Assembly (NCBI RefSeq): GCF_000429865.1
Contig: NZ_AUCR01000001.1
Span: forward strand, 186,001 to 250,000
From: Cucumibacter marinus DSM 18995
GTDB taxonomy: Bacteria; Pseudomonadota; Alphaproteobacteria; Rhizobiales; Devosiaceae
Direction: 5' to 3'
DNA length: 64,000 nt
Position 1 is the stretch's first letter; each line of letters begins with the position of its first letter. Positions 28,386-47,278 of the stretch are shown here, piece after piece. The position numbers and the translations under genes are program-made. Under the pieces are notes generated by a model. It was given only the letters and a program-made list of their open reading frames with translations, was not told where the DNA came from and ran no database searches.

Positions 28386-29174
28386 TCAAGCATCAAGGTC
28401 GTCGGCCCACTGCCGGATGGCCTGCGCGACAGGCTCGGGTTCCTCCAACATCAGCGCGTGGCTGAGCCCGGCGATCACCTCAATGGTGACGCGGTCGCCC
28501 AGCGCATCGCGAATTTCGTTGCGGGTGTCGGCCGGGCGCCAGGGGTCCAGAGCCCCCTGCAGATCGAGAATGGGCGCCGATCCGGCCGGCCACCAAACCT
28601 GTTTGGGAATTGCGCGATTGGCGGCGTCATAAAAGCCGATAAGCGCGGGGTGAAAGCCCTCCACCATGATCTCCGGATCGTGGCCAGGTGCAAAAAACGC
28701 CCTGCGCAGGGCGTCGCGGCGATCATCGTGTGTCGCCTGAGGCGAAACCAGAATTCGAAAGCAGTCGACAACCCAGTTGGGCGGAGCGAGGCATGAGGCG
28801 GCTGCCAGCACCACTCCGCGTACCGCCCCCGGATGCGCAGCGGCCACCATCCGGGCAATCCAGTTGCCATAGGCGTGACCGAGTACGATGGCGGGGCCCG
28901 CCCCCTCATGCTCGATGACAGCAGCCACATCGTCGGCGAGGTCGCGCAGGGTCATCCCTTCAAGCGGCGCACTGGTTCGCTCCATGCCGCGCGGTTGAGG
29001 CCTCAGCACCCGGAACCCTTGCCCCGCCAGAAGGGTGGCGAAATCATCCATGTCGGTGGAGGCGCGATTGGCCGAAGGCAGAACCACGATCAGGTCGCCC
29101 TGACCTTCAGCGACAGTGTCAATGCGGACATCGTCGCGATACTCGACGAAATACCGGGTGCGCGATCCGCTCAA
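28386..29174 (-). CDS. Alpha/beta hydrolase-fold protein lacking the nucleophilic serine
   Basis: A 262-residue alpha/beta hydrolase. The core is intact: strand LIVVLPSANRAS, VLRPQPRGMERT, the nucleophile elbow, LDLQGALDPWRP for the acid, and IAGLSHALMLEEP for the histidine. The elbow, however, reads GHAYG, with alanine (Ala101) where serine is expected, so ordinary esterase chemistry is unlikely. I recall a subfamily with GHAFGN at this place. A TTG start at 29174 overlapping the aapM stop is preferred, since AGAGG lies 5-6 bases upstream. It is the last gene of the aap transcript, in the position where an ATPase gene would be expected. Confidence 0.75.
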   Translation of the reverse strand: MSGSRTRYFVEYRDDVRIDTVAEGQGDLIVVLPSANRASTDMDDFATLLAGQGFRVLRPQPRGMERTSAPLEGMTLRDLADDVAAVIEHEGAGPAIVLGHAYGNWIARMVAAAHPGAVRGVVLAAASCLAPPNWVVDCFRILVSPQATHDDRRDALRRAFFAPGHDPEIMVEGFHPALIGFYDAANRAIPKQVWWPAGSAPILDLQGALDPWRPADTRNEIRDALGDRVTIEVIAGLSHALMLEEPEPVAQAIRQWADDLDA

Positions 29175-30289
29175 CGTATCCTCTCCGGCGCAACTTCCTT
29201 TTCCAGCCAAATGGAATAGCGTGAAAAACTGAAGCAGAAGATGAAATAGATGAGCGCCGCGAAGAGATAGGCTTCGATATGGATTCCGAGCCAATCCCCG
29301 TCGTTGAGCGTGGCTTTGACGGTGGTCAGGAAATCGAACAGCCCGATGATGATGACAAGCGATGTATCCTTGAAGAAACCGATAGCGATATTGACGAGCG
29401 CCGGAATGACGACCTTGAGCGCCTGAGGCAGGATGATCTTGCGCATCTTGAGGGAATAGCCGAGGCCCAGGGAATCCGCGGCTTCGTACTGCCCCTTGGG
29501 CAAAGCCTGCAGGCCGCCGCGCACAACCTCGGCGATGAAGGCCGCGGCAAAGATGATCAGTGCAACCTGCGCGCGCAGCAGCTTGTCGACCACCGCGCCC
29601 TCGGGCAGCAAAAGCGGGAACAGGACGGAGGACATGAACAGGATGGTGATCAGCGGCACACCGCGCAGCGTTTCGATATAGAGGACGCAAAGATTGCGGA
29701 TCAGCGGCATTTTCGACCGGCGCCCCAGCGCAAGCAAAATGCCCAGCGGAAAGCCAAAGGCGAGCCCCACCACCGCCAGCAGCAGGGTCAAAGGCAGGCC
29801 GCCCCAGACCCGGGTAGGCTGATAGCTGAGACCGAGGATGCCGCCATTGATGAGGATGAAGACCGCGGGCACCGCGGTCAGCCAGGCATAAGCCAGCCAG
29901 CGCTTCCAGAACCGGGGCTGTGCCGATGCCACGAGTATGGCCAGCGTGATGACCATGACCAGGATCAGGCGCCAGTGCTCTTCCGGCGGATAGAAACCAA
30001 AGAACATGAAGCGCATTTTGGCCCAGACAAAAGCCCAGCAGGCGCCGGCATGCGCGTTGGCGCGGCAGGTCTCACCATCGCCCACCCAGATGGCATTCAG
30101 GATACCCCAATTGAGGATGAAGTTTGCCGCAAACCCGATGGCAACAAGGCAAACCAGGGTGATCGAGGTGTTCAGCCAGCTCGAAAAGAATGCCCGCTGA
30201 ACCTTTGCGCCAAAGCCGACGGCGCTGGGAGGAGGACGCATTTCAGGAACCAGCGATTCGCGGACCATGGCGATTGGCCGATTGCTCAT
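29171..30289 (-). CDS. aapM: General L-amino acid ABC transporter permease AapM-like
   Basis: One of two permeases of a polar amino acid (PAAT) ABC importer. The 372-residue protein has a long N-terminal part with several extra helices (about 35-150), typical of AapM/BztC, and then the conserved permease domain with eight helices in all. The EAA loop that contacts the ATPase is EAADSLGLGYSLKMRKIILPQA. It follows aapQ after 3 bases. In Rhizobium the order is aapJ-aapQ-aapM-aapP, importing many L-amino acids; here aapP is absent. A different substrate is possible given the surrounding catabolic genes. Confidence 0.9.
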   Translation of the reverse strand: MSNRPIAMVRESLVPEMRPPPSAVGFGAKVQRAFFSSWLNTSITLVCLVAIGFAANFILNWGILNAIWVGDGETCRANAHAGACWAFVWAKMRFMFFGFYPPEEHWRLILVMVITLAILVASAQPRFWKRWLAYAWLTAVPAVFILINGGILGLSYQPTRVWGGLPLTLLLAVVGLAFGFPLGILLALGRRSKMPLIRNLCVLYIETLRGVPLITILFMSSVLFPLLLPEGAVVDKLLRAQVALIIFAAAFIAEVVRGGLQALPKGQYEAADSLGLGYSLKMRKIILPQALKVVIPALVNIAIGFFKDTSLVIIIGLFDFLTTVKATLNDGDWLGIHIEAYLFAALIYFIFCFSFSRYSIWLEKEVAPERIR

Positions 30290-30292
30290 TAC

Positions 30293-31504
30293 CTAGTTCT
30301 CCCGGATCGCCACATGGGCGTTGTACCAGTTCATGAACAGCGAGATCCCGATCGAAAGGGTCAGATAGGCGCTCATGAGGATGGCGATATTCTCCACCGC
30401 CTGCCCGGTCTGGTTCATTGTCGTGTTCACGACGCTGACGAGATCCGGATAGCCGATGGCAACGGCAAGCGACGAGTTCTTGGTGAGCGCCAGATAGATC
30501 GAGGTGATCGGCGGCACGACAACACGCAGGGCCTGCGGCAGGATCACAAGACGCATGGTCTGGCTCCAGCTCAAACCCACCGAATAGGCCGCCTCGCGTT
30601 GGCCGGCCGACACAGACTGGATGCCGGAGCGGACGATCTCCGAAATGAGCGCCGCGGAATAGAGCGTCAGCCCGATCAGGAGTGCTGCGAATTCGGGTGA
30701 CAGGGTCGCGCCACCTTTGAAGTTGAATCCGGAAAGCGCGGGCAGTTCGATGCCGATCCATTGCCCGGAGAGCAGAAGAGCGGCTGGCACCCCAATCATC
30801 AAGGCCAGGTTGATCGGCCAGGTGCGGCGTTGCTGCCCTGTTCTTTCGCGGTGACGATGATTGATCATGTACACGGCAAAAACGCCGGCGGCCATCAGCG
30901 CGAAGCCGATGAGCCACAGCCATCCGTTCGACCAGGTCAGCGCCGGCACGACGATGCCGCGATTGGACAAGAACGTACCCGGCAAGGGGTTGAGCGCCAC
31001 GCGCGGACCGGGAAACAGGTTGAGGATGATCGCGTACCAGAAAAACAGCTGCAAAAGCAGCGGGATGTTACGGATGGTCTCAACATAGGATTGAACGAGG
31101 CCGCGCAACAGCGGATTGGTGCTGAGCCGCATCACCCCGAGAACGGTGCCGATGAGCGTGGCAAAGACGCAGCCGAGAAAAGAGACCTTGATCGTGTTCG
31201 CAAGCCCCACGAGGACGGCCTGGCCGTAGCTGTCCGAAGACTGGTACTCGAACATCGACTCGCCGATGGCAAAATTCGCTGACCGCGAAAGAAAGTCGAA
31301 TCCCGAAGTGATGCCAACGTGGTTCATGTTGTCGATGGCATTCTTGGCGAAAAAGCCGAAGACCAGCACGACCGTGCCGAAAACCAGCGCCTGGATGATC
31401 AGGGAGCGGATAAATTCGTCGTACCAGAACCCCCAAAGGCCGTGGCGCTGACCGCGCCGTGGCTGGTTTCGCAGGGGCGTTGCTGATCCGGTTAGTTGCG
31501 TCAT
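30293..31504 (-). CDS. aapQ: General L-amino acid ABC transporter permease AapQ-like
   Basis: The partner permease of AapM. The 403-residue inner-membrane protein has the long N-terminal extension typical of AapQ/BztB, then ANTIKVSFLGCVFATLIGTVLGVMRLS. The EAA loop is REAAYSVGLSWSQTMRLVILPQA, near the C-terminus. RNIPLLLQLFFWY is a family signature. The N-terminal 20 residues are basic and cytoplasmic. The gene lies 100 bases downstream of aapJ copy 1 and 3 bases upstream of aapM, consistent with one operon. Confidence 0.9.
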   Translation of the reverse strand: MTQLTGSATPLRNQPRRGQRHGLWGFWYDEFIRSLIIQALVFGTVVLVFGFFAKNAIDNMNHVGITSGFDFLSRSANFAIGESMFEYQSSDSYGQAVLVGLANTIKVSFLGCVFATLIGTVLGVMRLSTNPLLRGLVQSYVETIRNIPLLLQLFFWYAIILNLFPGPRVALNPLPGTFLSNRGIVVPALTWSNGWLWLIGFALMAAGVFAVYMINHRHRERTGQQRRTWPINLALMIGVPAALLLSGQWIGIELPALSGFNFKGGATLSPEFAALLIGLTLYSAALISEIVRSGIQSVSAGQREAAYSVGLSWSQTMRLVILPQALRVVVPPITSIYLALTKNSSLAVAIGYPDLVSVVNTTMNQTGQAVENIAILMSAYLTLSIGISLFMNWYNAHVAIREN

Positions 31505-31604
31505 GGCGCCTGAAGGTCCCGGTCTTGGTGAGTTGTGACGTTTGAGCGCCGTGTTTCAGACCGGTGCGCAAAGCCGAAGTCTGCGCACCGGTGATCATTG
31601 CGGA

Positions 31605-32624
31605 TCAACGGAACGGCGGATTGTAGAGCAGCCCGCCATTGGTCCACAGTTCATTGAGCCCTCTGTCGAGCTCGAGCGCGGTGTCGGGTCCAACCCAGCG
31701 ATTGTAGATGTCGGCGTAGTTGCCCACCTGCTTGACGACATTATAGGCGAACTTGTCATCGACCCCGAGCGCTTCGCCGAGGCCGGGTTCTACACCGAGG
31801 AAGCGGCGGATCGCCGGGTCATCGGAATCAAGGAAGTCGTCAACATTGGCCTGATTGATCCCGTATTCCTCCGCCTGCATGGTGGCGTAGATCGTCCAGG
31901 AAACAATATCGAGCCATTCATCGTCGCCCTGACGGACCAGCGGTGCCAGCGGCTCCTTGGAGATACGCTCGGGCAGGATCATGAAGTCGTCGGGTGCCGG
32001 TGACGCCACGCGCGCGGCCGCCAACAACGAACTGTCCGTTGAATAGACATCGCACCGTCCTGAGAAGAATGCCTCTCGCACCTCCGCCACGCTTTCGATG
32101 ACGAGCGGGTTGAACGTCATGTTGTTCGCGAGGAAGTAGTCGTTGAGGTTCAACTCGGTGGTCGTGCCCGGCTGTACACAGACAGTCGCGCCGTCGAGCT
32201 CGGTTGCCGAAGAAATCGCGAGCGATTTGGGGACCATCATCCCCTGCCCGTCATAGAAATTGGTGGCACCGAAATTGATCCCGAGCGTTGCATCGCGGGT
32301 CAAGGTGTTGGTTGTGTTGGAGATCAGCACGTCGATTTCCCCGGTCTGAAGGGCCGGAAACCGCGTCTGGGACGTCAGCGAGACCATCTCGGCCTTGCTG
32401 GCATCGCCGAGCGTTGCCGCGGCGAAGGCATGGCAGAAATCGGGGTTCATCCCGATAAAGCTGCCACTGTCATCCGGATAACCGAAACCGACGGTACCCT
32501 GCGGCGTGCCGCAGCGGACAAGATCTCGATCCTTCACGGCGTCGAAGGTTTGCCCGGCTTGGGCAATAGCGGGCGCAAGGACCAAAAAGGCCGCTGCGAC
32601 CGGAAGGTAATATCTGGTCTTCAT
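31605..32624 (-). CDS. aapJ: Amino acid ABC transporter substrate-binding protein, AapJ-like copy 1
   Basis: A periplasmic binding protein of the AapJ/BztA family, 339 residues. Residues 1-23 are a signal peptide ending AIAQA. The mature part has RCGTPQGTVGFGYPD, NPDFCHAFAAATLGD, QTGEIDVLISNTTNTLTRD, TTELNLNDYF and FLGVEPGLGEALGVDD, all AapJ hallmarks. GGAGAA lies about 7 bases upstream of the ATG. It is the second of two binding-protein genes of exactly equal length in tandem; most blocks are shared with copy 2, so they arose by duplication. Confidence 0.92.
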   Translation of the reverse strand: MKTRYYLPVAAAFLVLAPAIAQAGQTFDAVKDRDLVRCGTPQGTVGFGYPDDSGSFIGMNPDFCHAFAAATLGDASKAEMVSLTSQTRFPALQTGEIDVLISNTTNTLTRDATLGINFGATNFYDGQGMMVPKSLAISSATELDGATVCVQPGTTTELNLNDYFLANNMTFNPLVIESVAEVREAFFSGRCDVYSTDSSLLAAARVASPAPDDFMILPERISKEPLAPLVRQGDDEWLDIVSWTIYATMQAEEYGINQANVDDFLDSDDPAIRRFLGVEPGLGEALGVDDKFAYNVVKQVGNYADIYNRWVGPDTALELDRGLNELWTNGGLLYNPPFR

Positions 32625-32662
32625 TGTTGTGTTCTCCATAAGCCTGGCCTGGCTATGCAGAA

Positions 32663-32679
32663 CCGGTGTTGAGCACCGG
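32663..32679 (-). other. Intergenic hairpin upstream of aapJ copy 1
   Basis: CCGGTG and CACCGG enclose TTGAG, a 6-bp stem about 40 bases before the aapJ copy 1 start. No T-run follows. It may act with the next hairpin to set the ratio between the two binding proteins and the permeases. Confidence 0.4.
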
Positions 32680-32791
32680 CTTGGCGCCTCCGGCATTGCT
32701 GTCGGAAATGCAGAGAATCGGGTGCGCCCGATCTCGGGCGGAATGCGGGTCCGGGCATTGCGATTGCGGTTTCCCAAGAGGCCCGCCAGGA

Positions 32792-32814
32792 CCGGCGGCA
32801 TCGGCTGCCGCCGG
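32792..32814 (-). other. Stable hairpin just after aapJ copy 2
   Basis: A perfect 9-bp stem, CCGGCGGCA and TGCCGCCGG, with a 5-base loop, begins 22 bases after the aapJ copy 2 stop. There is no U-tract. Such hairpins after binding-protein genes commonly protect the upstream message from 3' decay. Confidence 0.5.
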
Positions 32815-32836
32815 CACTCAGGTCACGTGTCGCCGA

Positions 32837-33856
32837 TCAACGGAACGGCGGGGCGTACATCAGGCCGCCTTCGGTCCACAGGTTGTTGAGACCTCTCTCG
32901 AGCTCGAGAACGGAGTCGGGCCCGACCCACTTTTCGTAGATCTCACCGTAATTGCCGACCGCCTTGATCACGTTGTAGGCGAATTTGTCGTCAAGGCCGA
33001 GCGCCTCACCGAGACCAGGTTCCACGCCCAGGAAGCGGCGGATCGCCGGATCCTCGGATTCGAGGAAGCTGTCCACATTAGCCTGGGTGATGCCGTATTC
33101 CTCGGCCTGAATGACGGTGTTCACCGTCCATTTGACAATGTCATACCACTCGTCATCCCCGTGGCGTACCAGCGGGGCCAGCGGTTCCTTGGAGATGCGC
33201 TCGGGCAGGACCATGAAGTCATCCGGTGCCGGGGATGCCACGCGGGCGGCGGCCAGCAAGGACGCGTCTGTGGTGTAGACATCGCATCGACCCGAGAAGA
33301 AGGCCGCGCGGACTTCCTGCACGCTTTCAATCACCACCGGTGTGAAGGTCATGCCGTTCTTGCGGAAGAAGTCCGTGATGTTGAGCTCGGTGGTGGTGCC
33401 AGGCTGCAGACACAGCGTGGCGCCGTCGAGATCGAGTGCACTGGTGACGTTGAGCGATTTGGGCACCATCAGACCCTGGCCGTCATACATGAAAGGTGGT
33501 GCAAAGTTCAGGCCCACCGTCGTGTCGCGGCTCAGCGTATGGGTGGTGTTGCCCGAAATCAAATCGACTTCGCCGGTCTGCACCGCCGCAAATCGCTGTT
33601 GCGCCGTCAGGGATACGAATTCGACCTTGGCGGGGTCACCGAAAACGGCTGCGGCAAAGGCATGGCAGAAATCGGCGTTCATGCCGACCCACTCGCCATC
33701 GTCGTTGGCGTAGCCAAAGCCGATGGAGCCAGTGCCCTGACCGCATTTGATGACACCTCTGTCCTTGATCGCATCCAGGGTTTCCCCCGAATGGGCAAGT
33801 GACGGCGTCAGGATGAGCGCGGCAGCAGCCACCGCACCCGACAATTGACGAAACAT
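32837..33856 (-). CDS. aapJ: Amino acid ABC transporter substrate-binding protein, AapJ-like copy 2
   Basis: A 339-residue AapJ-family periplasmic protein with a signal peptide of about 23 residues (cleavage after LAHS or near it). Blocks KCGQGTGSIGFGYANDD, NADFCHAFAAAVFGD, QTGEVDLISGNTTHTLSRD, TTELNITDFFRKN and FLGVEPGLGEALGLDD match copy 1 with scattered differences. The ATG at 33856 follows AGGAGGAGGGAG, a very strong ribosome-binding site. It is the first gene of the transporter unit, which suggests that it is the more abundant binding protein. Differences in ligand-loop residues (GQGTGS versus GTPQGT) may mean different ligands. Confidence 0.92.
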   Translation of the reverse strand: MFRQLSGAVAAAALILTPSLAHSGETLDAIKDRGVIKCGQGTGSIGFGYANDDGEWVGMNADFCHAFAAAVFGDPAKVEFVSLTAQQRFAAVQTGEVDLISGNTTHTLSRDTTVGLNFAPPFMYDGQGLMVPKSLNVTSALDLDGATLCLQPGTTTELNITDFFRKNGMTFTPVVIESVQEVRAAFFSGRCDVYTTDASLLAAARVASPAPDDFMVLPERISKEPLAPLVRHGDDEWYDIVKWTVNTVIQAEEYGITQANVDSFLESEDPAIRRFLGVEPGLGEALGLDDKFAYNVIKAVGNYGEIYEKWVGPDSVLELERGLNNLWTEGGLMYAPPFR

Positions 33857-33869
33857 AACTCCCTCCTCC

Positions 33870-33901
33870 TGGTTATCTTTCTTGCTGATTATCGTTCTTG
33901 C
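33870..33901. repeat. Tandem 16-bp direct repeat upstream of aapJ copy 2
   Basis: TGGTTATCTTTCTTGC (33870-33885) is followed at once by TGATTATCGTTCTTGC (33886-33901), 14 of 16 bases equal. It ends 14 bases from the aapJ copy 2 start, covering its leader. A paired regulator site is possible. Confidence 0.5.
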
Positions 33902-33952
33902 GTCGTTTCGACTGCCGGCCCGCGCCTCCCTGCGCATGCCGGCTCCGGCGTT

Positions 33953-35323
33953 CTATGGCACCGTATTCAAATCCGAGATCGCCCGTACGCTCCCAAGATC
34001 ACAAAGCTGATCGAAAAGCCGGTGGGCAGCTTGCTCGCCGAGATGATCGGCGCTGCAGGCCAGGAACTTGGCCCTGCGCTCATCGGCACTCATGCGCCGT
34101 GTCCAGTGTCCGCGGGCATAGGTGACAGGTTCGCTTTCAAGCACGCGGCTATCCTTGAGATGAAGCCGCACGGCGCCGGAAAAACCGAGATTGGGCGTCT
34201 TGTCGGCCGGGATGGCGGCATCGGCCTTCATCTCGACCTTGTCCATCATCTGTCGAACATCGCTGCGCTCGTAGAATGCTGGCTGAAGTTCCTCAAAGCC
34301 GGCACGCCGGTTGATGATTGCCGCCGACATGGCGAGGCCGACCGAAAACCCGGGCACAAAGCTGGTGACGGAGGGCGATTTGGAGACGACCTCGAACTGG
34401 GCCTCGCTCAATAGCGCCTCGACGCGCGCAACCTGATCGGGTCTGACATCGTGTTCGCGCACGAGGTCGAGAATGCCATCGAGCGCGCGCTGCATCATGT
34501 TGCCGAAAGGATATTGCTTGCAGTGAATGCCAATGGTCTCCAGTCGCCACTTGATACCGAGATCGGTGACCGGCGTGTCGAGATCGACACGGCCGTTGGG
34601 CGACAGCGCTACCAACATGCCCCGGCCAGGCCGTTCCAGGGCATCGGCGGGCGCCGTCGCCCCCGACATGGCCAACCGCACGGCCATGATGCCGGCAGCC
34701 GAGGCGCGCCCGACCTGAACCGGTGTTGCGTCGGTATCAAAAGCTGCGGTGGTACCCCCGGTCATTGACGCGGCAAGGCCCAATGCGCGCAGTGTGGCGT
34801 CCTCATCGAGACGGTGAAGACTGGACAGGGCCGCCGCTGCGGCGAAGGCGCCGAAATTTGCCGTCGCGTGCCAGCCTTTGGAGGCGTAGCTGTCGGGGTC
34901 GCGCTCCGCGAGGCGGGCCCAGACCTCGTAGCCGGCGGCATAGGCGCGGATCACATCGGCACCGCTGGCACCAATCGCTTCTGCTTCGGCGAAAATCGCA
35001 GGCATCAGAATGCCACTGGTGTGGCAACCGCCAAAGGCAACATCGTCGAACACGACGGAGGTCAGTGTTGCCGCGTTGACGAATGCTGCCTCATTGGCGG
35101 ATGCGCGCTGGTCACCGAGTAGAAGCCGTGCCCCATCCACCCGGCCTCGGGTGCCGATGAAGGCGAGCGCGTATTTGGAAACTGGCTTATTCACGCCCGC
35201 GAACATCACCCCCACAACATCGGTCAGCCCGGTCAATATCGCCTCTGTGGCGAGGACCGGAATGTGATCGTCGCGGAGACCGGATACGAAACCGGCCAAG
35301 GTTCTGGTTAGCGGTGCGGGCAT
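33953..35323 (-). CDS. MmgE/PrpD family protein
   Basis: A 456-residue member of the MmgE/PrpD family, which includes 2-methylcitrate dehydratase and cis-aconitate decarboxylase. It should act on a small polycarboxylic acid. The helical domain 1 (about 1-270) contains FDDVAFGGCHTSGI and GYEVWARLAERDPDSY followed by GWHATANFGAFAAAAAL, with the histidines and aspartates usual in the family. Domain 2 follows from about 275, with IKWRLETIGIHCKQYP. The ATG at 35323 has GGGGAAA upstream. It stands alone between two units and carries the shared 13-bp motif 54 bases upstream. Dehydratase, isomerase or decarboxylase activity cannot be told apart. Confidence 0.85.
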   Translation of the reverse strand: MPAPLTRTLAGFVSGLRDDHIPVLATEAILTGLTDVVGVMFAGVNKPVSKYALAFIGTRGRVDGARLLLGDQRASANEAAFVNAATLTSVVFDDVAFGGCHTSGILMPAIFAEAEAIGASGADVIRAYAAGYEVWARLAERDPDSYASKGWHATANFGAFAAAAALSSLHRLDEDATLRALGLAASMTGGTTAAFDTDATPVQVGRASAAGIMAVRLAMSGATAPADALERPGRGMLVALSPNGRVDLDTPVTDLGIKWRLETIGIHCKQYPFGNMMQRALDGILDLVREHDVRPDQVARVEALLSEAQFEVVSKSPSVTSFVPGFSVGLAMSAAIINRRAGFEELQPAFYERSDVRQMMDKVEMKADAAIPADKTPNLGFSGAVRLHLKDSRVLESEPVTYARGHWTRRMSADERRAKFLACSADHLGEQAAHRLFDQLCDLGSVRAISDLNTVP

Positions 35324-35376
35324 GATTTCCCCTGTACTCAACGTGGTTCAGATGATCGACAAGGCCGGCAATTCAA

Positions 35377-35513: not shown

Positions 35514-35897
35514 TCAGGAAAGTGCAAACATCGGCATGGTCTGACCGTCGACCTTGTGTCCCCAAGCCAGCCGAACGCGATGCTCGACGGTGATTGCCTC
35601 CAGATCGCTGTCGACAATGTTGGTCATCAGGATCGGGCCTTCGTCCAACCGCACATAGGCGATGGTATAGGGCGTCTCCGCCCGGCGCATGACCGAGTAG
35701 GAGTAGATGTTCCCCTCGCCACTTCCCTCCCGCCATTCAGTATGGGCGCTGTGGCAATGCGGGCAGATTGCGCGCGGATACCAGTGCGCTTTCTCGCAAT
35801 CGGCGCAAAACCGGATCAGGAACCGCCCTTCCTCCAGCGCCTGCCAGAATTCGGCGGTTTCGGGATGGTGGATCATCAAATCGGAAAAATCGGCCAT
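35514..35897 (-). CDS. DUF35 OB-fold zinc-ribbon protein, partner of the adjacent thiolase homologue (pair 1)
   Basis: A 127-residue protein of the DUF35 family. Residues about 30-54 form a zinc ribbon with CX2CX10CX2C spacing (CADC, then CPHC), followed by an OB-fold with SYSVMRRAETPYTIAYVRLDEGP and a C-terminal strand. DUF35 proteins bind thiolase-fold enzymes and position the acyl-CoA, as in benzoylsuccinyl-CoA thiolase BbsAB and the steroid aldolase Ltp2-ChsH2. It starts 9 bases after the thiolase homologue, so the two should be made together as a complex. A second such pair lies at 41870-43449. Confidence 0.88.
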   Translation of the reverse strand: MADFSDLMIHHPETAEFWQALEEGRFLIRFCADCEKAHWYPRAICPHCHSAHTEWREGSGEGNIYSYSVMRRAETPYTIAYVRLDEGPILMTNIVDSDLEAITVEHRVRLAWGHKVDGQTMPMFALS

Positions 35898-35906: not shown

Positions 35907-37076
35907 CTACTGCCGTTCGAGAATGAGTGTGGCGGCCCCGTGACGGGTGCCGAGATTGCCGCCCGTGCCATGCGCGAGCGCCAGGTCACAGCCAGGCACC
36001 TGGACGGCGGGGTGCGCTTCTCCCCTCAACTGCCGAACGGTCTCGATGACCTTGGTCATGCCGCCGCGATGGACGGGGTGGTTGTTGCACAATCCTCCGC
36101 CGTCGGTGTTGAAGGGCAGTTTGCCGACACCCGAGATCAGATTGCCGTCCGAGACGAAAGCGCCGCCCTTGCCTTTCTCGCAAAATCCGAGATCTTCGAG
36201 CTGGGTGAGGACGGTGTAGGTGAAGCTGTCATAGACAGAGACATATTTGATGTCGTCAGGCGTGATCCCGGCTTCCTCGAACGCTTTCGGCCCGGAAAGC
36301 GCACCGGCCGACCAGGTCAGGTCAAAAGTCCCGCCTGACTGATGTTTGACCGCCTCGGCGCCGCCCCGAACCATGATTTTCGGACGGTTCAGTTCCTTTG
36401 CGATTTCCGGGCGGACCACCACAAGCGCACCACCGCCATCCGACACCACGCAGCAATCGAGGCGGTGGAGCGGATCTGCGATCATCGGCGAATTGACCAC
36501 ATCCTCGACCGTCACGACATCGCGCAGCATCGCGTTGGGGTTGTGCTGGGCGTGATGGGACGCGGCAACCTTGATCCAGGCCAGTTGTTCCGAGGTGGTG
36601 CCGTATTCGTACATGTGGCGCATGGCGCACATGGCATAGGCATTGACCGTGGTCATGCGCATCGGCGATTCCCAGGGAAAATCAGGCTGCACCGGGTTGT
36701 CGGTGCGCGGGACGATGCCCTTGGACAGACCTTCCGAGCGTGGCCGCCCGGCCAGCGTGATCAGCGCGACGTCGCATTTGCCCGCGGCTATCGCTTCGGC
36801 CGCGTGCCCCACATGCAGAATGTAGGATGCGCCGCCGATATTCGATGAATCGGCGTGGCGGACGTTGAGGTTCATATAGTCTATGAGCGAAAGCGGACCA
36901 GTACCCGGCGCATCGCCACCGCAGAAATAGCCATCGACATCGTCAATCGTCAGGCCGGCATCCGCCAGCGCTCCCAGCGCCACTTCCGCATGAAGCTGAG
37001 CGACGGATTTGTCCGGCGCCTTGCGCAAAGGATGTTCATAAATGCCGGCGATACATGCCTTGCCGCGAATGCTCAT
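35907..37076 (-). CDS. Thiolase-fold protein lacking catalytic cysteines (pair 1)
   Basis: A 389-residue thiolase-superfamily protein of the SCP-x type. Domain 1 has VALGALADAGLTIDDVDGYFCGGD; where thiolases have the nucleophile in a VNxxCGSG-type loop, this protein has DSSNIGGASYILH, with Gly82 at the cysteine position and no cysteine in the loop. The His of the GHP block is kept (GGLCNNHPVHRGG), but the C-terminal cysteine block reads AHGTGGNLG. Classical thiolysis through a Cys pair is thus unlikely; retro-aldol or another C-C reaction with its DUF35 partner is possible. It lies 28 bases after a GST gene. The ATG at 37076 fits the family start. Confidence 0.85.
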   Translation of the reverse strand: MSIRGKACIAGIYEHPLRKAPDKSVAQLHAEVALGALADAGLTIDDVDGYFCGGDAPGTGPLSLIDYMNLNVRHADSSNIGGASYILHVGHAAEAIAAGKCDVALITLAGRPRSEGLSKGIVPRTDNPVQPDFPWESPMRMTTVNAYAMCAMRHMYEYGTTSEQLAWIKVAASHHAQHNPNAMLRDVVTVEDVVNSPMIADPLHRLDCCVVSDGGGALVVVRPEIAKELNRPKIMVRGGAEAVKHQSGGTFDLTWSAGALSGPKAFEEAGITPDDIKYVSVYDSFTYTVLTQLEDLGFCEKGKGGAFVSDGNLISGVGKLPFNTDGGGLCNNHPVHRGGMTKVIETVRQLRGEAHPAVQVPGCDLALAHGTGGNLGTRHGAATLILERQ

Positions 37077-37104
37077 AAACGAGGCCCCCAAGGTCTCAAG
37101 ATAA

Positions 37105-37725
37105 TCAAATGTCGTCGTATGGTTTGGTGGCGGCGACCGAGGGCCGCGCATTGAGATGGTCACCCAGTTCGGCCAGCGCAGGCCGCCCGGCCCGCCAATC
37201 GAGATCGTCGAAGCGGAAATCGAGATAGCCGAGCGCGCAGGCGATCGCGATATGGGCGATGTTGAAGCGGGTGTCGGCCAATCGCGAGGCCTGCGTTTCA
37301 AGCTCATCGAGGGTCAGCCGGACCCGAAGATCATAGAGCCGGAAGCGCTCATTGGTGTCGGCGGCCGGGTCCCGAAATTTTTCCGAATACCAATCGACCA
37401 CCAGGCCCATCAGCCCCTCGCCTATGGCGTGGTCACGCATCGCCTGAAATCGCGCATCGGGATCGTCGGGGTGCAGATGCCCGTCCCCGCGGACTACATC
37501 AAGGTAATGGACGATGACGGTTGAATCGAAGATTGCGGTGCCATCGTCCAGCACAAGCGTGGGCAGTTTGCCGAGCGGGTTGACTGCAAAAAGCGCCGGA
37601 TTGTCGCGAGAAGGCGACACGCGCATGGTTTCGAGCAAAACCTCATGTGCGAGCCCGGCCTCGTGTATCGCGATCATCGCCTTCCTCACATAAGGCGAGC
37701 GCGTGGAGTGATAGAGCTTCATCAT
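37105..37725 (-). CDS. Glutathione S-transferase family protein
   Basis: A 206-residue GST. The N-terminal thioredoxin-like domain (1-80) has LYHSTRSPYVRKAMIAIHE, NPLGKLPTLVLDDG (with the cis-proline that binds the glutathione backbone) and IFDSTVIVHYLD. The C-terminal helical domain runs from about 88 and contains FNIAHIAIACALGYLDFRF. Two adjacent ATG codons (37725 and 37722) can serve as start. It is the first gene of the unit GST, thiolase homologue, DUF35. In catabolic clusters GSTs may isomerise or open a substrate; here the role is only positional. Confidence 0.85.
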   Translation of the reverse strand: MMKLYHSTRSPYVRKAMIAIHEAGLAHEVLLETMRVSPSRDNPALFAVNPLGKLPTLVLDDGTAIFDSTVIVHYLDVVRGDGHLHPDDPDARFQAMRDHAIGEGLMGLVVDWYSEKFRDPAADTNERFRLYDLRVRLTLDELETQASRLADTRFNIAHIAIACALGYLDFRFDDLDWRAGRPALAELGDHLNARPSVAATKPYDDI

Positions 37726-37853
37726 GAACCTTGCCCCCGCCCCATCCGGAATACTCCGAATGCCCAGTTGAAATAAACTCGGTCCGCGCGGCACCCCTCA
37801 TGCCCGCACGCCTCCAGTAACGCCCAAAAAATGCTCACTTAATAGCTTGTCCG

Positions 37854-37866: not shown

Positions 37867-37891
37867 TCATACGCTTTATTGAGTTTTGATC
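37860..37891. promoter_or_regulatory. Inverted repeat upstream of the LysR gene
   Basis: GATCAAA (37860-37866) and TTTGATC (37885-37891) are separated by 18 bases and end 15 bases before the LysR start. This is a possible autoregulatory site. Confidence 0.45.
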
Positions 37892-37906
37892 ACAATGGAG
37901 CCTTCC

Positions 37907-38857
37907 ATGCGCCGCCGTCTTCCTCCGCTGAATGCCCTGCGCGCCTTCGAATCCGCGGGCCGGCATGTCAGCTTCACACGCGCCGCCGAAGAGCTTCACG
38001 TCACCCCCGGCGCAGTCAGCCGGCAGATCAAATTGCTTGAGGATTATCTCGGGCTTGAACTGTTCGAACGAACCAGCCGCGATCTGCGAATTACAGAAGA
38101 GGCGGAGGATTACGTTCACGCCCTGACGGATGTGTTCGACAGGGTGAACTCCGCCACCGAAAGGCTGCTGACAGCGCGGCGCGAACGCCCGTTGCGCATT
38201 CACTGTGCCATGACCTTCACCTTGCGTTGGCTGGTTCCGCTCCTGCCCCTGTTTCACCGGCTATATCCGCAACGCGAAATTCAGCTCACGACCTCCCTGG
38301 CGCCTCTGCCGGTAACACTGCTCGAAAGTGGCGATGTGGATGTCGCTATCCAGATGGGACGCGGAGACTGGCAGGGCATGATCGCGCACCGGCTGGCCGG
38401 CAGCGCGCTGGTCCCGGTTTGTGCGCCGGCTTTGATTGATGGAGATCTTCCGCTCGGCGCTGTCCACGATCTCAACGAGCACACGCTCCTGCACTCGCTT
38501 GCGCGCCCGCATGACTGGGCTGACTGGCTCGAGGCGGCAGGCGCAGCTCAAGTCGACCCGGAACGCGGTTTGCGTTTCGAGAGTTCAAGCCTTGCCTATC
38601 AGGCGGCCAAGGAAGGGCTGGGTGTAGCCATGGGCCAAATGGCGCTGATCGTCGACGATCTGGAGACCGGACGGCTGGTTACGCCCTTCGACTTTGTCTT
38701 CGACAATGGTGAGGCCTACTACCTGACCTATGCCGATCACGCGGAAAACGACCCGCGGGTCCGTGAATTCCGAGATTGGGTGCTCGGGCAGGCCGAGGAT
38801 TACGCTCAGGCCCACAAAGACACGATAAAGCCCGGTGTGACCGCTCTGTCGGGATAG
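37907..38857 (+). CDS. LysR-family transcriptional regulator (GcvA-like)
   Basis: A 316-residue LysR regulator and the only regulator in the catabolic region. The winged helix-turn-helix is at about 6-65: NALRAFESAGRHVSFTRAA, then VTPGAVSRQIKLLEDYLG and LFERTSRDLRIT. The effector domain follows from about 90, with GDVDVAIQMGRGDW and GLGVAMGQMALI. The ATG at 37907 is chosen because GGAG lies 6 bases upstream; in-frame TTG and ATG codons lie slightly upstream. It is divergent from the GST unit and the only plus-strand gene between 26 and 43.5 kb. It is the natural candidate for binding the four T-N11-A motifs. Confidence 0.9.
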   Translation: MRRRLPPLNALRAFESAGRHVSFTRAAEELHVTPGAVSRQIKLLEDYLGLELFERTSRDLRITEEAEDYVHALTDVFDRVNSATERLLTARRERPLRIHCAMTFTLRWLVPLLPLFHRLYPQREIQLTTSLAPLPVTLLESGDVDVAIQMGRGDWQGMIAHRLAGSALVPVCAPALIDGDLPLGAVHDLNEHTLLHSLARPHDWADWLEAAGAAQVDPERGLRFESSSLAYQAAKEGLGVAMGQMALIVDDLETGRLVTPFDFVFDNGEAYYLTYADHAENDPRVREFRDWVLGQAEDYAQAHKDTIKPGVTALSG

Positions 38858-38869: not shown

Positions 38870-40033
38870 TCAGTCCGCCAGTTCAATTACGCCTTCCTCG
38901 GCGAATTGATCGATTTCCGGGTCGGTGTAGCCCGCCAATTCAGACAGAATAGTTCGGCTGTCGGCGCCAACCTCCGGCGCGTCGCGATCGATCGCGAGCG
39001 GCTGATTGACAAGCTGGACGGGAAAGCCCTTGAACCAGCCGCCGTCATCGCCCCCCGGTATAATGGCCATATTCCACAATCGGGCGGTTTCACTCATCAG
39101 GCGATCGCCGGTCATGGCCGTTGCAGCGGCAATCCCGGCATCCACGAGCAACGCGACCGCTTCGTGACCCTGCCGCGCTCCAATCCAGTCCAAAAGGGCC
39201 TGCCGGCATTGCTGTGCGTGAGCACCTTCAGGCGCTCCGATCAACTGATGGAGTTTCGAGCGGTCTCTGTGTTCCAGCGACACCGCGACCCATTCACCAT
39301 CGGCCGATCGAAAGCAGTCCTGCACCAGATAGGGCGCGTCCGCGTTGCCGATTCTGGGCGCGGCTTCATCTTTGGCCGAAATGAACGTTTCGCCAATGAG
39401 ATAGCTTGTCAGCTCGCGCTGCGAGAGATCGAGGTGAGCGCCCTGTCCGGTTGCGCGCGCCTCATGAAGCGCCGACACGATCATCGATGCCGCGAATATC
39501 GCAACAACCTGATCGGGGTAGTTGACGTCCCGCCCGCTGACCACGGGTGCATCGCCATCATAGCCCGTGTGCCAGGCCATACCTGCCACCGCTTCAAGCG
39601 TTGAGCCGTAGGATACGTAATGGGAATCCGGGCCGGTCTCGCCCTGGCTGGAGATTGACCCCAGCACCAATCCGGGATTAACGCCAGCGAGCGTTTCATA
39701 TCCAAGGCCGAGGCGCTCCAGCACCCCGCGCCGGAAGTTTTCGACCAGACCATGAGAGCTGGCCGCCAGGCGCAGCATGATTTTTCGGCCAGCGGGTTGC
39801 TTTAGATCGAGGCTGAGCCCACGTTTGTTGCGGTTCGTGGCCCGGAAAAACGGTGACATCGCGCCTTCTGACATCGCTGGACCGTCCGGGATCCAGGCCC
39901 GGAAGGGATCACGATAGCTGGGCGATTCGATCTTGATCACCTCGGCGCCCAAATCGGCCAGCAAAGCGGAAGTGGCGGCGCCTGCCGTGATGATGCCGAG
40001 ATCGAGGATACGGCAACCCTTGAGAACACCCAT
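38870..40033 (-). CDS. Class III (CaiB/BaiF) CoA-transferase, subunit with catalytic aspartate
   Basis: A 387-residue class III CoA transferase, which moves CoA between acids through an aspartyl-CoA thioester. The N-terminus has CRILDLGIITAGAATSALLADLGAEVIKIE. The segment RDVNYPDQVVAIFAASMIV aligns with the catalytic block of formyl-CoA transferase, and the aspartate after the proline falls at the nucleophile place. LKQPAGRKIMLRL and LVENFRRGVLERLG are family features. It overlaps the second transferase gene by 3 bases. A heterodimer like BbsEF (benzylsuccinate CoA transferase) is possible. Substrate is unknown. Confidence 0.88.
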   Translation of the reverse strand: MGVLKGCRILDLGIITAGAATSALLADLGAEVIKIESPSYRDPFRAWIPDGPAMSEGAMSPFFRATNRNKRGLSLDLKQPAGRKIMLRLAASSHGLVENFRRGVLERLGLGYETLAGVNPGLVLGSISSQGETGPDSHYVSYGSTLEAVAGMAWHTGYDGDAPVVSGRDVNYPDQVVAIFAASMIVSALHEARATGQGAHLDLSQRELTSYLIGETFISAKDEAAPRIGNADAPYLVQDCFRSADGEWVAVSLEHRDRSKLHQLIGAPEGAHAQQCRQALLDWIGARQGHEAVALLVDAGIAAATAMTGDRLMSETARLWNMAIIPGGDDGGWFKGFPVQLVNQPLAIDRDAPEVGADSRTILSELAGYTDPEIDQFAEEGVIELAD

Positions 40034-41103
40034 CAGCGAGTCGCACGCCCGATTATGGCCGCGTCAACGGTATCGGGACCGGGCCGTTTCCCGTTCATCA
40101 GCAGAGGCAGACCAGGCACACGAGCGGACCCGATCTGGGCTGCGGCGAAAAAATCTCGCTCGGTGCATTGAGGGTCATCGAACAGTTCTTCGGGGCTCCA
40201 GACAGGACCGAGGGGCAGACGATGATCCAGCGCCATACGCCGGATATCGGCGCGAGACATGTCGGTAAAGTTGTCCTCGATCAGCGCCGCAACCCTTTTG
40301 GATGCGCGCAATCGATCTGCACGCAAGGCGAGAGCCGGATCGCTTAACCTCGGGTCGTTCAAAGCCTTACACAGACGCTCCCAGTCGGCTTCCTGATAGA
40401 CGATGGCAACATAACCATCAGCACATCGCACGACTTGCCATTCGCCGCTTGTGCCCGCCCGCATGAGGGGCTCAGCGTCAGTGCCCGGCATCGGGATCGC
40501 TTTCCAGTTGAGCCAGACAATCGTATCCATCAAATTGGCTCGCACGACCTCCCGCTGACCGGCGCGCTCGCCGAACTCACGGCCGAACAGGGCGGACGAA
40601 AGCCCCAGAAATGCTGAAAGTCCCAGGGCGTAGGCCGGCTGATGACCGGCAAGGCGCAGCGGCTGCCGGTCAGGATCGCCCACCATTGAGAGAAGGCCCG
40701 CCAGTGCCGCGACCGTGAACTCACTGGCCTTGCGCGCATCATCATTGGCGAAACAACTCAGCTCGACCACGATATCGCTGGGAAGCGCGAGCGCTTCGCC
40801 GCCAAGACCCTTGTTGGTGATTACGGCGTCGGTATCTGCCGCTATAGCCATGAGGGCGCTACCGGACACTTCTGCCATGTGCAGCGTTGATTTGCGGGCC
40901 GAAAGGAAACTGAAAAGCGCGCCGTCATCGTTCCCCTGCGCGCCAACCGATCGCAACGGATCACCGCAACCACCCTCCACCCTGAGGACGTTCGCCCCCA
41001 AATCCGCAGCAATGCGGCCGGTCATCGCCATGGCAACGCGCAACGGCAAAGGACAATCGGGGGTTGGCGCCTCGAGCAGGGTATAGTTGGTGGCATGCAG
41101 CAT
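40033..41103 (-). CDS. Class III (CaiB/BaiF) CoA-transferase, divergent subunit without the aspartate
   Basis: A 356-residue CaiB/BaiF protein, shorter and more divergent than its neighbour. The N-terminal fold is recognisable (AMTGRIAADLGANVLRVEGG), as is EFTVAALAGLLSMVGDP. The catalytic block reads GHQPAYALGLSAFLGLS, and the aspartate position appears to hold alanine, so this chain may be a non-catalytic partner. The active protein may be a heterodimer with the downstream subunit, whose start overlaps this stop. The ATG at 41103 has GGAGAA about 11 bases upstream. It lies 19 bases after the dienelactone hydrolase gene. Confidence 0.8.
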   Translation of the reverse strand: MLHATNYTLLEAPTPDCPLPLRVAMAMTGRIAADLGANVLRVEGGCGDPLRSVGAQGNDDGALFSFLSARKSTLHMAEVSGSALMAIAADTDAVITNKGLGGEALALPSDIVVELSCFANDDARKASEFTVAALAGLLSMVGDPDRQPLRLAGHQPAYALGLSAFLGLSSALFGREFGERAGQREVVRANLMDTIVWLNWKAIPMPGTDAEPLMRAGTSGEWQVVRCADGYVAIVYQEADWERLCKALNDPRLSDPALALRADRLRASKRVAALIEDNFTDMSRADIRRMALDHRLPLGPVWSPEELFDDPQCTERDFFAAAQIGSARVPGLPLLMNGKRPGPDTVDAAIIGRATR

Positions 41104-41122
41104 GGGGCTGGGCTGTTCTCCG

Positions 41123-41869
41123 TTAATGGCGGCCCGTCTGGGTGGTTCGTTCGAACAGGTCAAACAAGCGCTCCCAGGTCTGTTCGGCGGCCGCCGGGGC
41201 ATAGGCTCGCCCGGCCGCAAAACAATAGCCGTGCTGCGTGTCCGGATAGACGTCGACGGTGTGTGGCGCTCCGCTAACTTGCAGCGCCTGCCTGACCGTT
41301 TCGATGGTCTCGGGCGGGGCCGAACTGTCTGTTTCGGCGAACCCGAAATAGTATTCCGTGCCTGAGGGGTTGAAGAGCCGGTGTGGCGACCCTTGGTCTT
41401 CGGTCACCAGCTTCGTGCCGTAGAGCGACGCCACCGCAGCGAACTGGCCGGGGAAAGCGTGTGCGGCTGCGCAGACATAGCGACCGGACATGCAAAACCC
41501 GACCGCCCCAACCGGACCGGTTGCGACTTCGGCCTGCGCCCTCACGAACATCAGCATCGCGGCAGTGTCTTCGATCACCCGCTCATTATCGATGCTGTTC
41601 AGCGCCGCGCCGATGACCCGGGACATCGCATCATCGCGGCGCGGTAAATCGAACCTGACGTGGCCTAGTCGATAGTAGAGATCCGGAAGCAGGACGTAGT
41701 AGCCATGCGTGGCAAGGCGCCTGGCCATCTCACGCAACTCCTCGCGAATGCCAGGGGCGTCCATGAAGAAGAGGATCGCAGGAAATGGGCCCTCCCCATC
41801 CGGGTGCACGGCAAACGTCGGCATCAGACCGTGTTTCGTTGTAATTTCGGTCTCGTATTCCTGCATCAT
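41123..41869 (-). CDS. Dienelactone hydrolase family protein
   Basis: A 248-residue alpha/beta hydrolase of the dienelactone hydrolase family. The nucleophile elbow is GFCMSGR with cysteine, as in true dienelactone hydrolases, and the histidine is in DTQHGYCF. The N-terminal strand GPFPAILFFMDAPG and the region HGYYVLLPDLYYRLG are typical. It should open a lactone or hydrolyse an ester in the cytoplasm. Its start abuts the stop of the DUF35 gene (ATG directly after TAG), so they are coupled. It belongs to the unit thiolase homologue, DUF35, DLH and two CoA transferases. Confidence 0.88.
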   Translation of the reverse strand: MMQEYETEITTKHGLMPTFAVHPDGEGPFPAILFFMDAPGIREELREMARRLATHGYYVLLPDLYYRLGHVRFDLPRRDDAMSRVIGAALNSIDNERVIEDTAAMLMFVRAQAEVATGPVGAVGFCMSGRYVCAAAHAFPGQFAAVASLYGTKLVTEDQGSPHRLFNPSGTEYYFGFAETDSSAPPETIETVRQALQVSGAPHTVDVYPDTQHGYCFAAGRAYAPAAAEQTWERLFDLFERTTQTGRH

Positions 41870-42283
41870 CTAGGCTCCCTCTGCCCCGGCGCCGGCCCAC
41901 TCAAAGGCATGTTGGCGACGCCCTTCGTGTTGGCGACACGTGAGTTGTACCGGCTCGCCGATCCAGTTGCCTACCGGCATGATGCCCATAAGGTTCGACA
42001 CCAGGATGGGCCCCTCTTCCAGACGGACGGCAATCGCGTTGTAGGGAGGTGGAAAATCATCAAAATACTGGCGGTGGAATATCACCCAGGACAGGATCTC
42101 TCCGCGGCCTGATACCGGCGTCCAGGCATAATCCATGCTGAGGCAATCCGGACAAACAGGCGCCGGCGGATAGCGGAACCGAGCGCATGAAGCACAACTT
42201 TGGAGCTCGAGCCTGCCCTCGGCCATGGCGGCCCAGAAAGGTTCATCGTAAAGGCTGAGAACGGGTTGGGCGTCTGCCATCAT
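41870..42283 (-). CDS. DUF35 OB-fold zinc-ribbon protein (pair 2)
   Basis: A 137-residue DUF35 protein with the same layout as the one at 35514: a zinc ribbon CX2CX10CX2C (CASC, then CPDC), then an OB-fold with ILSWVIFHRQYFDDFPPPYNA, AVRLEEGPILVSNLMG, and a C-terminal strand. Its start overlaps the thiolase homologue stop in an ATGA arrangement, so the two proteins should be made in equal amounts and bind each other. GGAG lies 4 bases upstream. Sequence identity to the first DUF35 is moderate, so the pairs are old duplicates or were gained separately. Confidence 0.88.
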   Translation of the reverse strand: MMADAQPVLSLYDEPFWAAMAEGRLELQSCASCARFRYPPAPVCPDCLSMDYAWTPVSGRGEILSWVIFHRQYFDDFPPPYNAIAVRLEEGPILVSNLMGIMPVGNWIGEPVQLTCRQHEGRRQHAFEWAGAGAEGA

Positions 42284-43449
42284 GGTGCTCCGTAGATGAT
42301 AGAGATCGCCTTGCCGGCCACATCCGATGAGTAATGGACGTGCCGGCACTGCGGCACCTGGCGGTCACCGGCTTCGTTCCGAACCTGCCTGACTGCCTCG
42401 ATCTGGTGATTCCAGCCCTGCATATAGGTCTCGGACAGATGGCCGCCGCTGGTGTTCACCGGCAGGCCCTTGTCGAGCGAAATGCCATGCTCGGTCAGAA
42501 ACCGACCCGCCTCACCGGGCCGACAATAGCCATAACCTTCCAGTGCCAGCGGGACATGCAGGGAAAAGCTGTCATAGATCTGCAGCGCGTCCATGTCCCG
42601 TGGACCCAATCCGGCCATTTCGAAAACCTGATCTGCCACTTTCGACTGGGCAGAATGGTAGTAATCGGTGAGGCGTGGCTCGAGGCTGGTTGCGCCCTTG
42701 TTGAGGTCGAAACGACCCACCCCTTTTATCGATACCGGCTTGCGGCTGATCTGGCGGGCCTTTTCGGCCTCTGCGACGAGCAGCACCACCCCGCCATCAT
42801 TGATCAGGCAATAATCGAACAGGTGGAGCGGTTCACATATAAAGCGGGACGCAAGGTAATCCTCGATAGTGATTGGCTCGCGCATCAACGCGTTGGGATT
42901 TCGGCTCGCGGCGAGGCGTTGTGCGACCGCAACCTCGCCGAGTTCGGCCTCGGTCATGCCGCGTTCATGGAGATAGCGCCGGGCCATCATGGCGTAGAGG
43001 GCGCCTTGGGAAGTGAAGCCCCAGGGGGCGTGGTAGACGTAGGACAGGAAGGCATTCCCGCCCATCGCATCGGGTCCTCCATATTTGACCGCCGCGGAGC
43101 GCTGGTCATTGCCATAGACCAGCGCCACAACTTCGCAATATCCGGCGCGGATGGCAGCGACGGCCTCAAGAACCGCGGTCATGGCGTCGGCCTGACCTCC
43201 CCACCGCACATCGAGCCCGAGGAGTTCTCCCATGCGTTCATTGGCGATAGTCGGGCCGACGATCAGACCGTCGATATCCTGGCGCGAAATGGCCGCATCT
43301 GCGAGCGCAGCGTTGAAGGCCGCTGCGGCATAGCCATAGGAATCATGGGGCTTGTCACCGGCGCGGACGCGGGCGTGATCCGCCGGCCAGTCCGTATGGC
43401 CGACGCCGATCATGGCAGCGATGCCGCTAAGGTCATTTTGAGCCGCCAT
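42280..43449 (-). CDS. Thiolase-fold protein, Ltp2-like, without catalytic cysteines (pair 2)
   Basis: A 389-residue thiolase-superfamily protein. Where thiolases carry the nucleophilic cysteine it has WGGQADAMTAVLEAVAAI, with glutamine at the expected site. The GHP histidine block reads NTSGGHLSETYMQGWNHQ, with tyrosine at the histidine place, and the last cysteine block is QCRHVHYSSDVAG. GGxLSExY is the pattern I associate with steroid side-chain aldolase Ltp2 and relatives, which need a DUF35 partner and cleave C-C bonds by retro-aldol chemistry. An alternative GTG start at 43506 would add 19 residues. It is the first gene of a five-gene unit. Confidence 0.85.
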   Translation of the reverse strand: MAAQNDLSGIAAMIGVGHTDWPADHARVRAGDKPHDSYGYAAAAFNAALADAAISRQDIDGLIVGPTIANERMGELLGLDVRWGGQADAMTAVLEAVAAIRAGYCEVVALVYGNDQRSAAVKYGGPDAMGGNAFLSYVYHAPWGFTSQGALYAMMARRYLHERGMTEAELGEVAVAQRLAASRNPNALMREPITIEDYLASRFICEPLHLFDYCLINDGGVVLLVAEAEKARQISRKPVSIKGVGRFDLNKGATSLEPRLTDYYHSAQSKVADQVFEMAGLGPRDMDALQIYDSFSLHVPLALEGYGYCRPGEAGRFLTEHGISLDKGLPVNTSGGHLSETYMQGWNHQIEAVRQVRNEAGDRQVPQCRHVHYSSDVAGKAISIIYGAP

Positions 43450-43556
43450 ACGGGCAAGGTCTCCGGCTTGGCTATGTGATGGACAGGCACCGCTTGGGAA
43501 CAGCACCCGGTCAACCGACAGGGTTGCCAGAGCATCCGCTGGCAGCGCTCAAAGGG

Positions 43557-45209: not shown

Positions 45210-45277
45210 ACAACCCGGGGCCCGCCCCCCCACAAGCCGCGAGCGACCCTGCCAAACCGGGCTTTCCTGCATTGCAG

Positions 45278-45306
45278 TTGCGGAACATAACCCGAACATG
45301 TACTAT
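45278..45306 (+). promoter_or_regulatory. lexA promoter
   Basis: TTGCGG (45278-45283) and TACTAT (45301-45306) are spaced by 17 bases, about 44 bases before the lexA start. Both SOS boxes overlap or adjoin this promoter, so LexA bound here would block its own transcription. Confidence 0.7.
45283..45297 (-). promoter_or_regulatory. LexA binding site (SOS box) 1
   Basis: GAAC-N7-GAAC on the plus strand, that is GTTCGGGTTATGTTC on the minus strand, an exact match to the alphaproteobacterial SOS box GTTC-N7-GTTC. It lies between the -35 and -10 elements of lexA. Confidence 0.85.
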
Positions 45307-45307
45307 T

Positions 45308-45322
45308 GTTCGAGCTTTGTTC
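45308..45322 (+). promoter_or_regulatory. LexA binding site (SOS box) 2
   Basis: GTTCGAGCTTTGTTC, an exact GTTC-N7-GTTC match on the plus strand, directly after the lexA -10 element. It is opposite in orientation to the first box. Confidence 0.85.
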
Positions 45323-45349
45323 TGATTCTGCCTTTGAAAGGACCCTCTG

Positions 45350-46063: not shown

Positions 46064-46108
46064 CGCCGGTTGCATCCCTGCGGTCCTGGTGCCTGACTTG
46101 CGACTTGA

Positions 46109-46151: not shown

Positions 46152-46308
46152 CGGGCGTTCGGCCGCCTCGCGCTTGCGGGCATTTCCAATAATGATATTG
46201 CCAGCGCCCCACCCTGCCCGCTAGAAGCAAGCCGCAGGCAGTAGGGGGATTTATGCCAGGTCATCTCGAGTGGACGGTGACGGATAGCCTTTTGCGCGAC
46301 CTCGTCGT

Positions 46309-47250: not shown

Positions 47251-47278
47251 CGCGAAATCCAATCCTGGAGGGACAGAA

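Follow-up and report, generated by a model that had tools for sequence, protein, structure and literature searches.

A linked pair of class III CoA-transferase genes in Cucumibacter marinus, with one predicted catalytic subunit and one lacking the nucleophile

The gene pair and its surroundings

The window, by which is meant the whole stretch of DNA analysed here, comprises 64,000 nucleotides of Cucumibacter marinus DSM 18995 (contig NZ_AUCR01000001.1, positions 186,001 to 250,000). At 38870-41103 it carries two minus-strand open reading frames that are real genes, each scoring above the PF02515 cut-off of 23.3 bits. The upstream gene, A (40033..41103, 356 aa), encodes a class III CoA-transferase fold without the nucleophile, as judged from its PF02515 match (119 bits for the longer frame 40033-41220), a check of the nucleophile column and an AF2 model with a pLDDT of 78.9. 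The downstream gene, B (38870..40033, 387 aa), matches PF02515 at 235.9 bits and is, from the same column check, the predicted catalytic subunit; that the upstream subunit is the shorter one had already been noticed in an earlier sequence-only reading of this DNA. The two genes meet in TGATG (40031..40035, minus strand), read directly from the sequence, in which the stop codon of A (TGA, 40035-40033) and the start codon of B (ATG, 40033-40031) have a single base in common; the overlap of 3 bases given in the earlier reading is corrected here to 1. This arrangement probably leads to translational coupling of A and B. The whole genome contains four PF02515 genes, A and B included.

On the minus strand the order is thiolase-fold protein A, DUF35-type protein A, a DLH-type hydrolase just upstream of A (41123..41869; PF01738, 129.7 bits), A and B, followed by a LysR-type regulator on the plus strand (37886..38857). 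Beyond the regulator, again on the minus strand, lie a glutathione S-transferase family gene (37105..37794) upstream of thiolase-fold protein B, then that protein itself, DUF35-type protein B, an MmgE/PrpD family protein (33953..35341) and a polar-amino-acid-type ABC transporter with two SBP_bac_3 proteins and two permeases (29171..33937). The best NCBIfam matches of the transporter are a lysine/arginine/ornithine-type substrate-binding protein and a GltK-type permease, both below their cut-offs. On the other side of the cluster, a plus-strand run at 43794-48750 encodes a ManC-type mannose-1-phosphate guanylyltransferase, a LexA-type gene (45350-46063), DGOK, a KDPG/KHG-type aldolase and gluconolactonase-like genes; from DGOK to the gluconolactonase-like genes it is a set for sugar-acid breakdown, with no evident tie to A/B.

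The nucleophile column and the linkage of A and B

In a joint alignment, D174 of B (NYPDQVV) falls on the column of the aspartate of E. coli Frc (D169), YfdE and CaiB and of BbsF D178, and Ala157 of A (GHQPAYALG) stands in the same column. By arithmetic, the two codons lie at 39514-39512 and 40635-40633, respectively. The sequence-only reading had proposed exactly these two residues, and both assignments hold; an aspartate conserved in the upstream protein was looked for in the alignment, and A has none.

No close relatives came up with A as a single-protein query, either in the genome contigs or, at E 1e-15, in plasmids, so that an alignment query was needed. Scanning the genome contigs with such a query gave 89 loci, of which the best 80 were used; the column and motif counts below refer to these 80 loci plus the window. 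The nucleophile column of A holds Ser in 51 rows, Ala in 24, Cys, Pro, Tyr and Val in one each, Asp in one and a gap in one, so that Asp is absent from 79 of the 80 readable rows. The same column of B holds Asp in 75 of 76 rows, that is, in all 75 readable ones, the remaining row being truncated and showing a gap. Loss of the aspartate in A is a trait of the family, above chance. The single A row with an aspartate comes from Rhizobium sp. CF080 (locus L104, A subunit at 9953-10978, AGSQLDYAAG), where the residue was either retained or regained.

Further motifs separate the two subunits. The ENFxxG-type motif, whose position we take to be on the CoA side, occurs in 0/81 A rows versus 73/76 B rows, and N[RA]NK in 0/81 versus 72/76; conversely, a WxNWK-type motif is present in 80/81 A rows and in 0/76 B rows. 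Conservation of the E, N and F in ENFxxG is 79-84% over 19 other class III sequences and 95-100% over 20 B rows. Within A, two motifs of its own, GGHQx[AS]Y and WxNWK, are strongly kept, and 26 columns are invariant over 24 aligned rows.

Among the 60 nearest genomes, from the same family and order, matches reach at most 32% identity, and a class-wide search at E 1e-28 found matches in 10 of 385 genomes, the window's own included; some of the 80 loci share genomes with these matches. Many of the 80 loci are metagenome bins, and counts over them are non-independent: a single Reyranella-dominated clade holds 46 of the 75 B-tree rows.

Adjacency was no part of the search, and in 75 of the best 80 loci the gene directly after A on its strand is B; in the other five the DNA ends at most 139 bases from the A match. 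In 22 of these 75 A-B loci the two are fused into one protein, and in 53 they are separate genes. The split genes overlap in 51 of 53 loci, 44 of them by 4 bases, and are separated by gaps of 5 and 17 bases in the other two, these lengths resting on start codons picked by script. On the B tree the fused or split state changes eight times, at least six of the changes being forced by starred branches. Distant fused A-B proteins of 620-684 aa were also seen (L117-L119, L121 and L122), with an A part that is shortened or divergent and has lost the GHQ motif.

These data bear on the possibility that A and B are two separate homodimeric class III enzymes standing side by side, with A active through another residue. 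In favour of it, each protein matches PF02515 on its own, A has its own kept motifs and the Rhizobium A subunit has an aspartate in the column. This alternative is nonetheless unlikely in view of the constant succession of A and B (the only five departures lying at a DNA end), the repeated fusion of the two, the absence of an ENFxxG-type motif from every A row and the grouping of A with BbsE in the tree described below. Still less probable, in our judgement, is that A is a decaying pseudo-enzyme, retained merely to chaperone or regulate B. Such decay would agree with the longer end branch of the window's A in the tree (0.96 versus 0.47 for B) and with the shortened A part of two distant fused copies (L041 and L042), whereas the invariant columns in A and its in-frame fusion to B in 22 of the 75 loci argue against it, and BbsEF offers a precedent for the place of such a subunit within an enzyme.

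The residues, the co-occurrence, the overlap, the repeated fusion and the tree together lead us to regard AB as one enzyme. Probably, A and B form a single BbsEF-type heteromeric class III CoA-transferase with one working site, in B, per AB unit. The physical complex, catalysis at one site and the CoA donor are features that we infer from sequence. Asp174, the nucleophile, would come from B along with the ENFxxG motif, and A, which has neither, would serve as the structural and substrate-side half; the reaction would proceed through an anhydride on Asp174 of B and then an Asp-CoA thioester, the course taken by Frc and BbsEF.

Descent of the subunits and the comparison with BbsEF

The tree was built from 67 rows: 20 of the 81 A rows, 20 of the 76 B rows, three plasmid-borne fusions divided into halves, BbsE, BbsF and 19 other class III sequences (Frc, YfdE, CaiB and 16 uncharacterised ones). 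Two loci were left out (L002 and L013) as the open reading frame picked by script was off at the nucleophile and looks to be in the wrong frame, as were six of the 19 loci L006-L024, in which the script found no suitable frame. The A rows and the B rows each form one group (100/100). A, the three fused N halves and BbsE are split from all other rows at 99/95, B groups with the three fused C halves and BbsF at 99/95, and the 19 other class III sequences make up a third group at 96/86. In the three plasmid fusions the nucleophile column of the N half reads Ser, Ala and Glu, and the C half has Asp in 3/3.

Forcing A and B into one clade was 37.8 log units worse in an AU test (p 0.002), and forcing BbsE and BbsF together 17.9 log units worse (p 0.014), both clades having been chosen post hoc from a tree already seen. 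When the A rows were removed, BbsE still grouped with the fused N halves and BbsF with all but one of the three C halves, at SH-aLRT 86 and 93, respectively. Long branches are found in BbsE and, in the tree without A rows, in several fused halves, and non-catalytic halves evolve fast; the grouping of A, the N halves and BbsE may partly reflect long-branch attraction. The tree against BbsE, BbsF and CaiB that the sequence-only reading had called for joins A to BbsE, joins B to BbsF and puts CaiB elsewhere, and does not give the picture of two unrelated homodimers. Together with the aspartate in the BbsF-type subunit, this grouping supports that reading's suggestion of a heteromer with a single catalytic subunit, for which BbsEF is the precedent.

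The likeness to BbsEF extends to the residues. The title of 9fol in the PDB reads 'BbsEF, D178-CoA adduct'; of the two subunits, BbsF has Asp at residue 178 and BbsE has Ala. As in A/B, two class III subunits are present and the aspartate is found in the F-type subunit only (BbsF D178), BbsE having Tyr171 in the column; BbsE is likewise without the N and F of ENFxxG, a motif missing from A. Identity is low: a fused relative shares 27% with 9fn0_D, and the model of A 20% with 9fn0_A. Unlike BbsEF, the A/B family includes fused proteins, and its partners look aldolase-type. A model of one fused relative (L066, 774 aa) has a pLDDT of 83.6 and a pTM of 0.89, and its B half superimposes on the BbsEF chain 9fol_D with Z 25.4 and an rmsd of 2.5 over 358 residues; the structural alignment rows for this model span residues 402-768 only, the A half lying outside. 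The model of A alone gave rmsd values of 14 to 16 Å against known class III chains, with Z up to 18.0, and perhaps these high values would reflect a chain that is interlocked in the dimer; no claim made here leans on this comparison.

Other heteromeric or two-domain class III enzymes are already known, and A/B would be a further member. The catalytic aspartate of DddD, the DMSP CoA-transferase/lyase, lies in its second domain, and SptAB consists of two subunits. DddD resembles the fused relatives in having two CaiB domains on one chain, which an extract of one report places at 1-416 and 439-821 in the Endozoicomonas protein (PMC7174347), and part of another states that the catalytic Asp is required (PMC4437653). 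It differs from the window, where A and B are two open reading frames, fusion being seen in 22 of the 75 A-B loci. In the relevant section of PMC5592240, a class III malate CoA-transferase is given as (alpha beta)6 and benzylsuccinate CoA-transferase (printed 'benzoylsuccinate') as alpha2beta2, and SptAB, another class III enzyme, is named in a portion of PMC11659651; DddD, malate CoA-transferase and SptAB are likened to A/B by description. In the open-licence literature, we found no description of the A/B family, its repeated fusions, its aldolase-type neighbours or the BbsEF structure.

A further plasmid locus may be placed beside these. On plasmid p5 of Sagittula sp. MA-2 (L126, 3343-7325), a thiolase/OB-fold pair adjoins two CoA-transferase genes; both of these keep the aspartate, and the tree places them with the ordinary class III sequences. 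Several of the plasmid-borne relatives are annotated plainly as 'CoA transferase'.

The thiolase-fold partners and a candidate route

Two thiolase-fold/DUF35 pairs accompany A and B, and they account for both Thiolase_C_1 matches of the genome. Thiolase-fold protein A (42280..43506, minus strand), a predicted Ltp2-type retro-aldolase, and DUF35-type protein A (41870..42349, minus strand), with a zinc ribbon and an OB fold (PF12172, PF01796 and a CxxC...CxxC pattern), both have uncertain starts. Thiolase-fold protein B (35907..37307, minus strand) is of the PRK08142 type, and is followed by DUF35-type protein B (35514..35897, minus strand; PF01796 60.9 bits, PF12172 46.4 bits). It scores 724 bits on NF006010 (cut-off 462), with a match that begins at residue 78; homology places its true start probably near 37076. 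As called from 37307, the 5' end of its frame is overlapped by the glutathione S-transferase gene.

That these genes encode true thiolases was considered and dropped, as the thiolase cysteine is missing. Compared with TcLtp2 (6ok1), CtSal (9myr) and 7yvy, an acetyl-CoA acetyltransferase that has the Cys, thiolase-fold protein B shows Gly at the position of that Cys; thiolase-fold protein A likewise shows Gly in an alignment made through 6ok1, its direct alignment with 7yvy being out of register at that point. Both proteins carry YDSF, corresponding to YDHF in Ltp2 and YDCY in Sal, and among the best 80 loci the motif is found in 9/9 A-type and 44/44 B-type rows of at least 300 aa (shorter or less similar rows excluded). 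Thiolase-fold protein A further has a Tyr at the place of TcLtp2 Tyr344, within an LSE[ST]Y stretch kept in 9/9 rows, whereas in thiolase-fold protein B this second tyrosine of Ltp2 is replaced by a His-Pro stretch. The arrangement resembles Ltp2-ChsH2 and Sal-Shy (PDB 6ok1 and 9myr) in its thiolase fold with DUF35, its Y-D-x-F/Y motif and its missing thiolase Cys. Those are steroid side-chain aldolases, whereas no steroid genes are found among the scanned neighbours. The nearest solved relative of both proteins, 4u4e, is titled only 'Thiolase' and likewise has YDSF. On these residues, both thiolase-fold proteins are predicted Ltp2/Sal-type aldolases; as protein A has both TcLtp2 tyrosines, the names 'thiolase' and 'lipid-transfer protein' probably mislead.

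The same evidence bears on the suggestion in the sequence-only reading that the cluster recalls the bbs route. BssA is a PFL-like glycyl radical enzyme, and a search for a PFL-like gene (PF02901) gave 0 matches in the window's own genome, which is 99.33% complete, the control search having matched in 3 of 14 genomes. The two thiolase-fold proteins, at 96.3 and 150.2 bits, fall far short of the cut-off of 750 for the BbsB model NF053628. A reduced bbs route with true BbsAB-type thiolases, as the co-location of a CoA-transferase pair with thiolase-fold/DUF35 pairs might suggest, is hardly credible against these scores, the missing PFL-like gene and the presence of YDSF in place of a thiolase Cys, and the suggestion is not supported. 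The tie to bbs is one of subunit ancestry rather than of pathway, because there is no PFL-like gene, the BbsB scores are low and the thiolase Cys is absent.

Among the best 80 loci, thiolase-fold protein B is present in 44 and its DUF35 partner in 43 (each in 32 of the 43 loci with full flanks), thiolase-fold protein A with DUF35-type protein A in 10, LysR in 11, DLH in 7 and PrpD, at 50% identity or more, in 3. The open reading frame group of the glutathione S-transferase (representative L043) occurs in nine loci (L043-L046, L048, L069, L094, L104 and L108). A scan of selected neighbours at selected loci found, near some relatives, an enoyl-CoA hydratase, an alpha/beta hydrolase, an SSADH-like aldehyde dehydrogenase and a PRK07586-type TPP enzyme, as well as MmgE/PrpD, PrpF and tripartite or ABC importers. 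These neighbours are consistent with a CoA-dependent pathway acting on a small polar acid, without naming the substrate.

Speculatively, AB would activate an imported carboxylic acid and the linked Ltp2-like thiolase-fold/DUF35 proteins would cleave the product by retro-aldol reaction, the route running from import of a small polar acid through CoA transfer by AB to a beta-hydroxyacyl-CoA, its retro-aldol cleavage and oxidation of the aldehyde. A broader reading, which we offer tentatively and with some doubt, joins this route to the tree: a single early class III split would have produced a catalytic and a nucleophile-less lineage, with BbsEF, the A/B family and the two-domain fusions (perhaps DddD) as its descendants and the dead half as a platform for substrate specificity, and the window's pair would open an undescribed CoA-dependent route in which, after activation of a carboxylic acid, two Ltp2-like aldolase/DUF35 complexes would cleave it in place of a thiolase. 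If A is indeed a dead, specificity-setting half, one residue and one motif would suffice to recognise split and fused pairs, substrates could be sought by swapping A subunits, and the origins of BbsEF and of the two-domain enzymes would become one evolutionary question. The aldolase-type partners hint at an uncharacterised catabolic route, here mainly in Alphaproteobacteria.

A distant parallel of the window's cluster is found on a plasmid of Diaphorobacter sp. HDW4B (L124). It encodes at 7863-10403 a fused CoA-transferase of 846 aa whose N half has no Asp, and its neighbours are MmgE/PrpD, a TPP enzyme, an HMG-CoA lyase, MaoC-type and acyl dehydratases and an SSADH.
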